Shown in pieces: positions 42,270 to 47,280 of a stretch of DNA of 64,000 bases; the first letter of the stretch is position 1; each line of letters opens with the position of its first letter. The DNA lies in NCBI RefSeq assembly GCF_009707365.1, contig NZ_CP046122.1:1674001-1738000 (forward strand). The letters run 5' to 3'. The notes beneath the pieces are model-generated. The model was given only the letters and a program-made list of their open reading frames with translations, searched no databases and had not been told where the DNA came from. Source of the DNA: Microlunatus sp. Gsoil 973. Its GTDB lineage: Bacteria > Actinomycetota > Actinomycetes > Propionibacteriales > Propionibacteriaceae. The translations under genes and the position numbers were made by a program.

Positions 42270-42385
42270 AGGCTCCAGATTGCCTGTCGTCCGCGGTCCT
42301 TGGTGCCTGAGAGGTTCCGGGGAGGTTGCCCCTTCGGCGCCGTTCCGTGGCCGGAATGGTCTCTCTCGCGTCGACATTCGGCATC
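42270..42385 (-). ncRNA. Glycine riboswitch (leader of gcvP)
   Basis: Read on the minus strand, the leader shows the glycine aptamer signatures GCGAGAGAGACC, GCCGAAGGGGCAACC and CCCGGAACCTCTCAGGCACC followed by AAGGACCGCGGA. They are in the right order and spacing for one aptamer. I see only one complete aptamer; the tail CAGGCAATCTGGAGCC may close the P1 helix or represent a remnant. It should raise or lower gcvP expression with glycine level. Confidence 0.85.
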
Positions 42386-44431: not shown

Positions 44432-45049
44432 TCAGCCGGCAGCGCGGGCCTTGCGACGCCGTGACAGCTCGTCGTCGGTCGCCTCGAGGATCGCCGCGGT
44501 CTCTGCGTCGTGCGCGTTCTCTTCGACCCGCTCCACCGGCAGGGTCGCCAGCGATCCCTCGATGTCCTTCCACACGCCGCCCAGGGCGATGCCGAAGACG
44601 CCCTGGCCGCCGCGGAGCAGGTCGATCACCTCGTCATCGGAGGTGCACTCGAAGACCGTGACGCCGTCGCTCATCAGGGTGACCTCGGACAGGTCGTTCA
44701 CTCCGCGGGACCGCAGGTGATCGATCGCCGTGCGGATCTGCTGGAGCGAGATGCCGGCGTCGATGAGCCGCTTGATCACCTTGAGGATCAGGATGTCGCG
44801 GAAGCTGTAGAGCCGCTGGCTGCCCGAGCCGCTCGCCCCGCGGATCTCCGGGGTCACCAGGCCGGTGCGGGCCCAGTAGTCGAGCTGGCGATAGGTGATC
44901 CCGACGACCGTGCAGGCCACCGGGCCGCGGAAGCCGCGATCGCTGGGCAGCGGTGAGAAGTCTCCCTCGAAGAGCAGGTCCTGGGTCTCGCCCATCGGCA
45001 GAGCGGGCTGATCGGCCGCGTTGTCGGCCGTACGTCCCTTGCTTGTCAC
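44432..45049 (-). CDS. MerR-family regulator (Rv1830-like)
   Basis: MerR-type regulator of 205 aa. The winged HTH begins unusually far into the protein (ACTVVGITYRQLDYWARTGLVTPEIR at about residues 49-74) followed by LYSFRDILILKVIKRLIDAGISLQQIRTAIDHL. The GTG at 45049 has GGGAGG 5 nt upstream. Gene order with the DUF151 gene, a second MerR gene, an FHA gene and gcvH matches the mycobacterial Rv1826-Rv1830 region, where the orthologue has been linked to cell division control. The palindrome array described below lies in its upstream region. Confidence 0.88.
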   Translation of the reverse strand: MTSKGRTADNAADQPALPMGETQDLLFEGDFSPLPSDRGFRGPVACTVVGITYRQLDYWARTGLVTPEIRGASGSGSQRLYSFRDILILKVIKRLIDAGISLQQIRTAIDHLRSRGVNDLSEVTLMSDGVTVFECTSDDEVIDLLRGGQGVFGIALGGVWKDIEGSLATLPVERVEENAHDAETAAILEATDDELSRRRKARAAG

Positions 45050-45139
45050 GGATGCCTCCCAGGAAGGACTCTCATCAAGGTAATTCCACACTGCGGATTA
45101 CCTCTACGAACCTACGACCGTCGGTCTTCGGGGGGTCAA

Positions 45140-45157
45140 CGACACGCCGCGATGGAA
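45140..45157 (+). repeat. 42-bp interspersed repeat, partial copy H
   Basis: CGACACGCCGCGATGGAA matches the 5' part of the 42-bp element; the TGACCCCTCG half is absent. Confidence 0.5.
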
Positions 45158-45300
45158 CCGCATCTCCCGCCGTCTCTCAACCTCAACTTGAGGCTGGCCC
45201 ACGGGGAGAGTGATGCCTGCCAGGGTCCTACGCCGCCCCGGATCCGGCCGCCCGACCTGCGTGGTCCACGGCACCGGCCCCCGAACGTCCCAGACGCAAA

Positions 45301-45673
45301 CTCAACGTTTGAGCCAGCGGCTCCCAAACCACGATGATTCGAGCCGCACACTCAACGTTTGAGTTTGCGATCACCGCCCGACCGGGGACAGGCCACACCC
45401 AAACTCAACGTTTGAGCCAGCGGCTCCCACACCACGATGATTCGAGCCGCCCACTCAACGTTTGAGCTTGCGACCACCGCCCGACCCGGGAGAGGCCACA
45501 CCCAAACTCAACGTTTGAGCCAGCGGCTGCCAAACCACGACGATTCGAGCCACACCCTCAACATTTGAGTTTGCGACCACCACGCCGCGCCCCGGAGAGG
45601 CACACCCAAACTCAACGTTTGAGGTAGCGGCTCCCACACCACGACGATTCGAGCCGCCCACCCAACGTTTGAG
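45301..45673. repeat. Tandem array of four large imperfect palindromes
   Basis: Eight boxes of CTCAACGTTTGAG or close variants start at 45301, 45351, 45404, 45454, 45507, 45557, 45611 and 45661, with alternating spacing of 50 and 53-54 bp. Each pair encloses GCGGCTC and GAGCCGC, which can pair around a 17-nt loop, so the four units (45301-45363, 45404-45466, 45507-45569, 45611-45673) are extended palindromes. Box variants are ATTTGAG in the sixth and CCCAACG in the eighth. Linkers of about 40 bp are also similar to each other. Confidence 0.92.
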
Positions 45674-45730
45674 CTTGCGACTCGCCGGACTCACCGGGCA
45701 GTGACGGCGCCGACAACGAGGTGGGTCCGA

Positions 45731-46240
45731 TCAGTGATCCGGGCCGCCGGTCACGAAGTCGTCCGGGTTGACCTGGTCGAGGAACTCACGGAACTTGGCG
45801 ACCTCGGTGTCGGAGTCCAGGGACTCCTCACCCTCCTCGGGGGCATCCTCGTCCGGCATCAGTACGCCGGCCTCGTCGAGTACGTCTTCAGCACAGTAGA
45901 TCTCACACCCGGCCCGCAGCGCGATCGCAATCGCATCCGAGGAGCGGGAACTGATCTCGACGCCGTCGATCACCAACACCGCGTAGAACGTCCCTCCGGA
46001 CAACTCGGTGATGTGCACTTCCGACAGCGTGTGGCCCAGACCCGACAAGATGTCCACGATGAGATCGTGGGTCAGCGGGCGCGGCGGTACGACGCCCTCC
46101 TGGGCGTTGGCGATAGCCGAGGCCTCGCCGGCACCGATCCAGATCGGCAGGTAGCGGGCGCCACCCACCTCACGCAGCAGCACCATGGGCGAGTTCGATG
46201 GCATTTCCACTCGCACACCGACCACATCGAGTTCTCGCAT
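45731..46240 (-). CDS. DUF151 bifunctional nuclease-like protein
   Basis: Protein of 169 aa in the DUF151 (bifunctional nuclease) family. It starts MRELDVVGVRVEMPSNSPMV and has LPIWIGAGEASAIANAQEG, THDLIVDILSGLGHTLSEV and SSRSSDAIAIALRAGC, all typical. The C-terminal 40 residues are strongly acidic. It sits between two MerR genes as in mycobacteria. Some plant and bacterial members cut DNA and RNA; the role in actinobacteria is not established. Confidence 0.92.
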   Translation of the reverse strand: MRELDVVGVRVEMPSNSPMVLLREVGGARYLPIWIGAGEASAIANAQEGVVPPRPLTHDLIVDILSGLGHTLSEVHITELSGGTFYAVLVIDGVEISSRSSDAIAIALRAGCEIYCAEDVLDEAGVLMPDEDAPEEGEESLDSDTEVAKFREFLDQVNPDDFVTGGPDH

Positions 46241-46353: not shown

Positions 46354-47151
46354 TCAGCGATCCATGCCGGTACGGATCAGGGCTGCGTGTACGCCGATGA
46401 CCAGCTGGGTGACCTCGGCGGTGACGTCGCCGCGACCGTTCTTGCCGCGGGAACGGGCGTGCGGGGCAATCGCCTGTTCGACCAGACCGATCTCCCGGTC
46501 GGCGGCGAGTTTGAACGCCCGGAGATGACGGCTGTCGATCCCGTAGACGGCCAGCCGGCGGGCGGCGACGGCGATGGCCAACGCCTCGCGTCCGTAGTAC
46601 TGGGTGCCACGCCGCGGCACGATCACCTGGATCGACTCCAGTTCGGCCAGCGCCGACTCGGTCAGCCCGCTGGCCTCGAGAAGGTCGGCCCGGGACAGCC
46701 GCAGCTGTTTCGGCGGCTGCCGGGACTGTCCGCCGGCCTGGGTTGGCTGGGCGTCCGGCGGCGCTGGACGCGGCGGCAACTCCTCGGACCGGGCCGCCTC
46801 CTGTCCTACGGGGTCGACGGCCGGCTCGGGACGGACGACTCCGTTGACCTTCGGCCGGTCCGACGGCCGGACATCGAGTCGGGGCCGCTCCAGACCGCGA
46901 TCGAGCTGTTCCAGGTGCTCGCGGATCACCTTCAGCGGCAGGTACTGGGACTTCTGCACCCGCAGGATGTACCGCAGGCGTTCCACGTCGGCCGGGCGGT
47001 AGCGGCGGTATCCCGACGTGGGCGCACGTTCCGGCGCGAGCAACCCGACGCTCTCCAGGAATCGGATCTTGGAGATGGAGATGTCAGGAAACTCTGACTT
47101 CAACGAGGCGAGCACCTGACCGATGCTTCGCACCGTCGAGTTCGCTGCCAT
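46354..47151 (-). CDS. MerR-family regulator (Rv1828-like)
   Basis: Regulator of about 265 aa with an N-terminal HTH (SIGQVLASLKSEFPDISISKIRFLES, then SGYRRYRPADVERLRYIL). A Pro-rich linker of about 60 residues follows, then a conserved C-terminal domain (LSRADLLEASGLTESALAEL, GIDSRHLRAFKLAADREI). This two-domain layout matches Rv1828 of M. tuberculosis. The ATG at 47151 has no strong ribosome-binding site. It forms part of the conserved gcvH-FHA-MerR-DUF151-MerR block. Repeat copy G lies upstream. Confidence 0.9.
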   Translation of the reverse strand: MAANSTVRSIGQVLASLKSEFPDISISKIRFLESVGLLAPERAPTSGYRRYRPADVERLRYILRVQKSQYLPLKVIREHLEQLDRGLERPRLDVRPSDRPKVNGVVRPEPAVDPVGQEAARSEELPPRPAPPDAQPTQAGGQSRQPPKQLRLSRADLLEASGLTESALAELESIQVIVPRRGTQYYGREALAIAVAARRLAVYGIDSRHLRAFKLAADREIGLVEQAIAPHARSRGKNGRGDVTAEVTQLVIGVHAALIRTGMDR

Positions 47152-47238
47152 GCGTGTTCGGTGCCCCCTCGGGATCAATCGGCGGATCGGGCCCAGCCTA
47201 ACTGGGGGTGCGCACCGGTCAACGAACCCACCCGCGCA

Positions 47239-47280
47239 CGACACACCGCTAATATCCGGGAATTTGTGACCCCTCGCCGG
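47239..47280 (+). repeat. 42-bp interspersed repeat, copy G
   Basis: Forward copy CGACACACCGCTAATATCCG..TGACCCCTCGCCGG, located between the MerR start and the end of the FHA gene. Confidence 0.83.

Follow-up and report, generated by a model that had tools for sequence, protein, structure and literature searches.

The window analysed here is a 64,000-nt stretch of the genome of Microlunatus sp. Gsoil 973 (contig NZ_CP046122.1, positions 1,674,001 to 1,738,000, forward strand); window positions are counted from its first letter. A MerR-family regulator gene (44432–45091, minus strand) and a bifunctional nuclease/DUF151 gene (45731–46240, minus strand) enclose an array of four palindromic units of ~103 nt at 45301–45673, ~200 bp upstream of the MerR gene. 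Because of synteny with the gene order Rv1826–Rv1832, we take this MerR gene to be of the Rv1830/McdR type (mcdR below) and a second MerR gene (46354–47244) to be of the Rv1828/FtsR type. A sequence-only reading of the window had placed four palindromes with eight alternately spaced boxes between the MerR and DUF151 genes. The array is real and the gene coordinates bear out its location; the boxes start at 45301, 45351, 45404, 45454, 45507, 45557, 45611 and 45661, giving gaps of 50, 53, 50, 53, 50, 54 and 50. We find that it is part of a dispersed repeat family and is not specific to this locus, that the family also brackets a gene 51 kb away, and that the array probably consists of spread sites of the system to which that gene, with its predicted AbiEi-like and nuclease-like domains, belongs.

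Six of the eight window boxes are exact copies of CTCAACGTTTGAG, and the other two carry one change each (CTCAACATTTGAG at 45557, CCCAACGTTTGAG at 45661). The units form direct repeats of 103 nt starting at 45290, 45393, 45496 and 45600, with identities to the first of 100, 92, 81 and 76%; the earlier description of few changes among units is right for neighbours and wrong for units 1 and 4, which differ at about a quarter of positions. The inner palindrome described before, GCGGCTC and GAGCCGC around a 17-nt loop, is likewise present in units 1, 2 and 4, while unit 3 has GCGGCTG and GAGCCAC. All four units match the repeat model introduced below, on the plus strand. Unit 1 (45290–45374) runs through an outer arm, a box (45301–45313), the inner GCGGCTC/GAGCCGC, a second box (45351–45363) and another outer arm; the others are unit 2 (45393–45477, boxes 45404–45416 and 45454–45466), unit 3 (45496–45580, boxes 45507–45519 and 45557–45569) and unit 4 (45600–45684, boxes 45611–45623 and 45661–45673). 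Between units 1 and 2 a spacer (45375–45392) lies outside the conserved arms, and 42–43 nt separate the 11-nt box cores of adjacent units.

The array is not a chance arrangement, since its 11-nt core TCAACGTTTGA occurs at 33 places in the 4.91-Mb genome and the reversed pattern at 0. Core matches are spread over numerous clusters elsewhere, and in several of these the copies stand in tandem at a period of 102–104 nt. The earlier guess of an expanding palindromic repeat gains support: the unit belongs to a family found across the genome, in which tandem arrays are numerous. A repeat model based on sequence only, built from 46 copies, gave 151 matches in the genome with both strands counted (the best 150 candidates were scored). 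We count 77 full two-box copies in 43 clusters, chosen by hand as a subset of 86 non-overlapping rows out of 171 both-strand model rows over 42 fetched loci, with one copy (spacing 52) doubtful; the other nine of the 86 rows are partial or degenerate. Very decayed copies may escape this count because copies were initially found through their boxes. Single full copies make up 24 of the 43 clusters, and the other 19 hold two to five.

Each copy has two box dyads of 11 bp, TCAA-N3-TTGA; from one box start to the next the distance is 50 bp in 70 of the 77 copies (51 in four, 49 in two, 52 in one). Conservation extends beyond the boxes to an outer AA/TT and an inner GGC/GCC, and CGACAC, part of CGACACGCCG, is present in 55/77 copies; the 10-mer CGACACGCCG is the inner block of most copies outside the window and is degenerate in the window array. 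The central three box bases vary, and in only 14/77 copies is the left box the exact complement of the right one. The repeat unit is thus a pair of inverted ~27-bp sites, each with outer AA, dyad box and inner GGC. The half-site pattern occurs at 128 places which, among the matches listed (to position 4037129), all lie in or beside clusters, so that they reveal no ordinary transposon bounded by ends of this kind. In two clusters (L209:2811–3234 and L203:2889–3324) half-elements repeat at steps of ~73 bp and 42–43 bp, a pattern that suggests tandem duplication of parts of copies. The flanks of 23 single-copy loci are C-rich just to the left (C 0.44, G 0.30) and G-rich just to the right (C 0.27, G 0.46), a skew that fades by 100–200 nt.

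Repeat clusters at 1666.7 and 1668.3 kb flank a 343-aa gene (L227:3431–4462, genome positions G000:1667230–1668261), and the downstream element starts 2 nt past its stop codon. As modelled, the protein probably combines an AbiEi-antitoxin-like fold (residues 9–206) with a Vsr/homing-endonuclease-like domain: the best structural match of the predicted residues 208–312 is an I-Bth0305I-type (Vsr/EDxHD) homing endonuclease, and the modelled Vsr-like fold carries a conserved acidic motif. The closest readable homolog (57% identity) is in M. endophyticus, inside the DUF151–mcdR gap where the present genome has its array, and is bracketed by two copies of a different, 55-nt palindrome whose arm word occurs nowhere else in the 1.19 Mb read. 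A tblastn search with the 343-aa gene gave zero matches in the 79 other mcdR loci fetched.

Other relatives of the gene are bracketed as well, by palindromes of their own. Two M. elymi paralogs were found where their locus tags predicted (0.4 Mb read), one bracketed by two copies of TTGCTCGAG...CTCGAGCAA palindromes with a spacing of 46, the other between arrays of AATTCCAGGAGG...CCTCCTGGAATT palindromes with a period of ~105 nt. Among the matches listed, a search of a plasmid collection added six more distant genes, three from Tsukamurella, two from Arthrobacter and one from Nonomuraea, and two further distant homologs came from M. endophyticus and M. elymi DNA. For the resulting 12 genes we took the longest word common to both 350-nt flanks, start codons being guesses. 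It reached at least 13 nt in 9/12 genes against 26/945 control open reading frames (ORFs) (Fisher 8e-12), and at least 16 nt in 6/12 against 3/945. The gene that gave the lead, in genome G000, is counted among the 12, and with it left out the first figure becomes 8/11 (p 1.7e-10); the controls are ORFs of at least 250 aa from three Microlunatus-type genomes, while 6/12 of the genes belong to other genera. A previous form of the test, applied to four genes, found a shared 12-mer for 4/4 against 73/946 and a hairpin word common to both flanks for 3/4 against 2/946. The best downstream palindrome starts −3 to +5 nt from the stop codon in 8 of 13 tabulated genes. The control ORF with the second-longest shared flank word (L282:2205–3203, G000 ~4752205–4753203, the present genome) proved to encode an AbiEi_4 protein (PF13338, 47.6 bits), and a palindrome of its own, containing GTGCTGGGTAGTCACAGCA, brackets it; three other longest-word control ORFs that we inspected are ordinary enzymes or a regulator. 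A partial arm word of the L282 palindrome, CTGGGAAGTT, also occurs in L217.

Some of these palindromes are dispersed too. Those of three Tsukamurella tyrosinosolvens genes match in 8, 9 and 5 records of that genome (20, 12 and 7 places), the best place lying under no annotated feature in 17/22 records, and for the Arthrobacter palindrome 10 places were counted within the record it comes from, some of which are the array beside the gene. Because both palindrome strands were counted, true sites are perhaps about half of these places. In the plasmid collection the Tsukamurella and Arthrobacter families are each confined to their own genus. T. tyrosinosolvens (NZ_LR134451, NZ_LR134454, NZ_LR134464) carries no fewer than three genes of this kind, and the dispersed palindrome family differs from gene to gene. 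The link between gene and repeat is well supported by these observations.

The repeat model matches in 2 of 20 same-genus genomes, the present one and M. endophyticus (G012, five matches), and the family is missing from 18 of the 19 others; in a sample of 97 genomes drawn evenly at the level of the taxonomic family, with stricter filters and with G012 outside the sample, only the present genome matches. In 56 relatives the exact two-box pattern does not occur. At the mcdR locus of M. endophyticus, the sister species, there is no array, and no repeat-model match was found in 80 fetched mcdR loci of relatives, M. endophyticus included; in 79 of these the sequence upstream of the gene is 200 nt or longer. 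Both flanks of six clusters (L205, L206, L207, L226, L227 and L242) align to M. endophyticus, and the corresponding gaps there gave no repeat-model match. At one of these clusters, at 1654 kb, the sister has ~40 nt against ~640 nt with an array here, with edges that are not clean. Three M. endophyticus loci (L117, L118 and L260) carry family copies with a box spacing of 60, one helical turn beyond 50; the L260 copy is degenerate.

What keeps the palindrome bears on two of the guesses made earlier, a small RNA source and a cruciform-forming structure, taken here as a structured RNA or a cruciform maintained for its hairpin. Single copies do fold strongly, each window unit beating 200/200 shuffles (z −8.1, −4.9, −3.3 and −3.7 for units 1–4), but RNAalifold found no consensus pair among the repeat copies, pairing of the obvious 28-bp stem (set A1) was below that of 500/500 shuffles, and same-copy arms pair no better than arms taken across loci (43 loci, five draws, p 0.75–0.98, for whole arms and parts). 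A maintained hairpin is accordingly very improbable. Change between adjacent tandem units (27 pairs with an identity of 80% or more) is concentrated outside the core positions: changed cells number 9/432 in box dyads, 3/108 in AA/TT, 4/162 in GGC/GCC and 6/270 in the CGACACGCCG block, against 34/323 in spacers, 63/621 in other inner and 43/270 in other outer positions. Over all arrays the rate of change at core positions is roughly one-fifth of that in spacers (box dyads versus spacers, p 8e-7); the two-box selection criterion biases the box-dyad rate somewhat, while the GGC and CGACACGCCG blocks lie outside it. Length differences between neighbours are also rarer in the inner part (6/34) than in spacers (9/15; p 0.006). 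Slow core change without arm covariation places the constraint on double-stranded sites and not on a hairpin, and from the sequence comparisons we read the palindrome as a single double-stranded DNA site present twice in inverted orientation. The sequence-only reading had also proposed a multi-site operator. The array's position upstream of the MerR gene speaks for an operator of McdR or FtsR, as does a CTCAACTTGAG dyad (45182–45192) in the mcdR promoter, outside the array and present in M. endophyticus also. Yet 42 other clusters carry copies, so that for the MerR link the outcome which the sequence-only reading had named as a refutation, a common repeat found throughout the genome and not tied to this locus, holds. 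The box is also unlike the motifs given for McdR (AATnACAnnnnTGTnATT; available text of PMC9040748) and FtsR (AACCCTAAAGTAAAGGTTGAGGGTA; available text of PMC6683498), and a link to the MerR gene is left unsupported by the array's absence from the sister mcdR locus and from all 80 mcdR loci. We give a MerR operator scarcely any credence; as an operator the array may still hold, in the form of binding sites for the distant AbiEi-nuclease protein.

Two further explanations accept the dispersal. Ordinary repetitive extragenic palindromes (REP, BIME or REPIN) spread by a RAYT (a Y1 tyrosine transposase), present or since lost, would make the nuclease gene a chance resident among copies. As the available text of PMC3116915 describes REPINs, they are paired inverted ends with tandem clusters, and the present repeat resembles them in its paired inverted ends, fixed spacing and flank-including tandem arrays: pairs stand at a preferred distance, 50 bp in most copies, and nearly half of the clusters hold two or more. 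However, PF01797 (RAYT-type) had no match with E ≤0.001 in the 20 same-genus genomes, the present one included (controls were positive in 5/14), the repeat has no replication-strand bias (24/43 loci), and relatives of the nuclease gene own different palindromes in three genera. Palindromicity kept by compensatory change showed no excess over controls, and a GTAG or GT(A/G)G head at the palindrome foot was not seen by eye in the weighted consensus of the 70 spacing-50 copies. Lack of PF01797 and of a compensatory excess sets the repeat outside the REP/RAYT family, and we regard RAYT-driven spread as quite unlikely. Alternatively, the palindromes could be AbiEi-type autoregulatory operators and terminators, their dispersed copies forming a regulon or a protein sink without mobility. 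AbiEi and Rv2827c control their own genes by way of paired inverted repeats (available text of PMC7319586), core positions are constrained here, a fixed 50-bp spacing suits cooperative binding, and divergent gaps hold 15/43 clusters where ~8 are expected by intergenic length (p 0.012 over three classes, with a crude gene caller) or ~12 by gap number (p 0.048). Copies also lie directly past stop codons, though, convergent gaps hold 14/43 clusters, and the family is missing from 18 of the 19 other same-genus genomes. On balance we hold this explanation to be unlikely.

We consider it likely instead that the array is a set of tandem-amplified site pairs, and that the gene and its bracketing palindromes form a selfish unit resembling REP/RAYT with an unrelated AbiEi-nuclease enzyme. 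The arrangement of gene and palindrome, which other bacteria repeat with palindromes of their own, resembles a DNA system that spreads itself, and the reader of the sites is, judging by the models, most likely the AbiEi-like part of the protein acting on double-stranded DNA. That part would bind each ~27-bp arm, as fold similarity and the constraint data suggest; two monomers on an inverted site pair, like AbiEi and Rv2827c on their own operators, would position the nuclease, which would cleave at or near the pair. Repair of the break from another copy would then disperse the palindrome or duplicate it in tandem, with the gene as the autonomous unit of the element.

Several points weigh against this account. 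Binding, cleavage and spreading by the AbiEi-nuclease protein are steps that we infer, the AbiEi structural match of the model has a moderate Z and a high root-mean-square deviation (5.8), and Foldseek by itself gave no AbiEi match with E <0.001. Cross-locus identity is at most 89% (70 spacing-50 copies), and at most 73% between the window array and any other, so the family is not freshly spread. The sister-species comparisons yield no clean empty site, and at the 23 single-copy loci no offset with flanking repeats of 2–10 nt stands out as a target-site duplication; with the confinement of half-sites to clusters among the matches listed, the latter also speaks against a miniature inverted-repeat transposable element (MITE) of a DDE transposon. 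Three of the 12 genes did not pass the flank test (an M. endophyticus homolog at 29%, the Nonomuraea gene and one M. elymi ORF, which palindromes at 172861 and 174021 bracket only if a shorter start is taken), and the bracketing palindromes of M. endophyticus and M. elymi are not clearly dispersed in the DNA read. The modest divergent-gap excess may leave room for a regulatory role.

The wider proposal, on which we are evenly divided, is that actinobacterial AbiEi-nuclease fusions are an undescribed class of selfish elements. Each would have its own site pair on both sides, DNA-binding part and palindrome would co-diversify, and the palindromes of some genomes, such as this Microlunatus and Tsukamurella, would have reached tens of sites with no recognised transposase involved, perhaps through repair copying triggered by the nuclease. 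Among the records listed in searches of an open-licence full-text library, no prior description of the AbiEi-nuclease/palindrome system was seen. If true, the proposal would add a second, independent cause of dispersed bacterial palindromes besides RAYT transposases and assign a function to 'DUF559' proteins and to orphan AbiEi-like ones. The old question whether such repeats are operators, parasites or both becomes testable, and the gene-palindrome pairs are a natural set for working out rules of DNA recognition.

The mcdR promoter has features of its own. A copy of CGACACGCCG at 45140–45149 fits the WhiB2 motif cGACACGc (available text of PMC9040748), and a CGACACGC-type site lies within ~330 nt upstream of mcdR, on either strand, in 72 of 79 readable relatives, as a raw count. 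Elsewhere in the window a glycine riboswitch aptamer (42284–42378, minus strand) lies directly upstream of a glycine dehydrogenase (gcvP-type) ORF.

MITEs and intergenic repeats of the Correia and ERIC type are short, non-coding and dispersed, with inverted ends. The Microlunatus repeat shares all of these traits, and differs in that its flanks show no conspicuous target-site duplication and that the half-sites listed point to no transposon with ends like these. Free-standing homing endonucleases cut the allele that lacks them; those of the Vsr/EDxHD type (I-Bth0305I) resemble the modelled residues 208–312, whereas the Microlunatus gene is bracketed by a palindrome that is also dispersed. With AbiEi and Rv2827c (available text of PMC7319586) the system has in common paired inverted sites of similar length beside the gene and, by prediction, probably the fold of residues 9–206; unlike AbiEi, the protein has an extra nuclease-like domain as modelled, and its sites flank the gene at either end and recur in 41 clusters elsewhere. 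RAYT genes are bracketed by cognate REPs, whose abundance follows the gene (available text of PMC2817692). With REP, BIME and REPIN sequences and their RAYTs, as the available texts of PMC2817692 and PMC3116915 present them, the system has in common inverted ends at a fixed distance, arrays that include flanks, a bracketed gene and several gene-palindrome pairs per genome. In contrast, its repeat lacks strand bias and arm covariation, and its gene encodes a predicted AbiEi-like and Vsr/homing-endonuclease-like protein in place of a Y1/HUH transposase. By analogy, the Microlunatus system may function like REP/RAYT, though outside that family.
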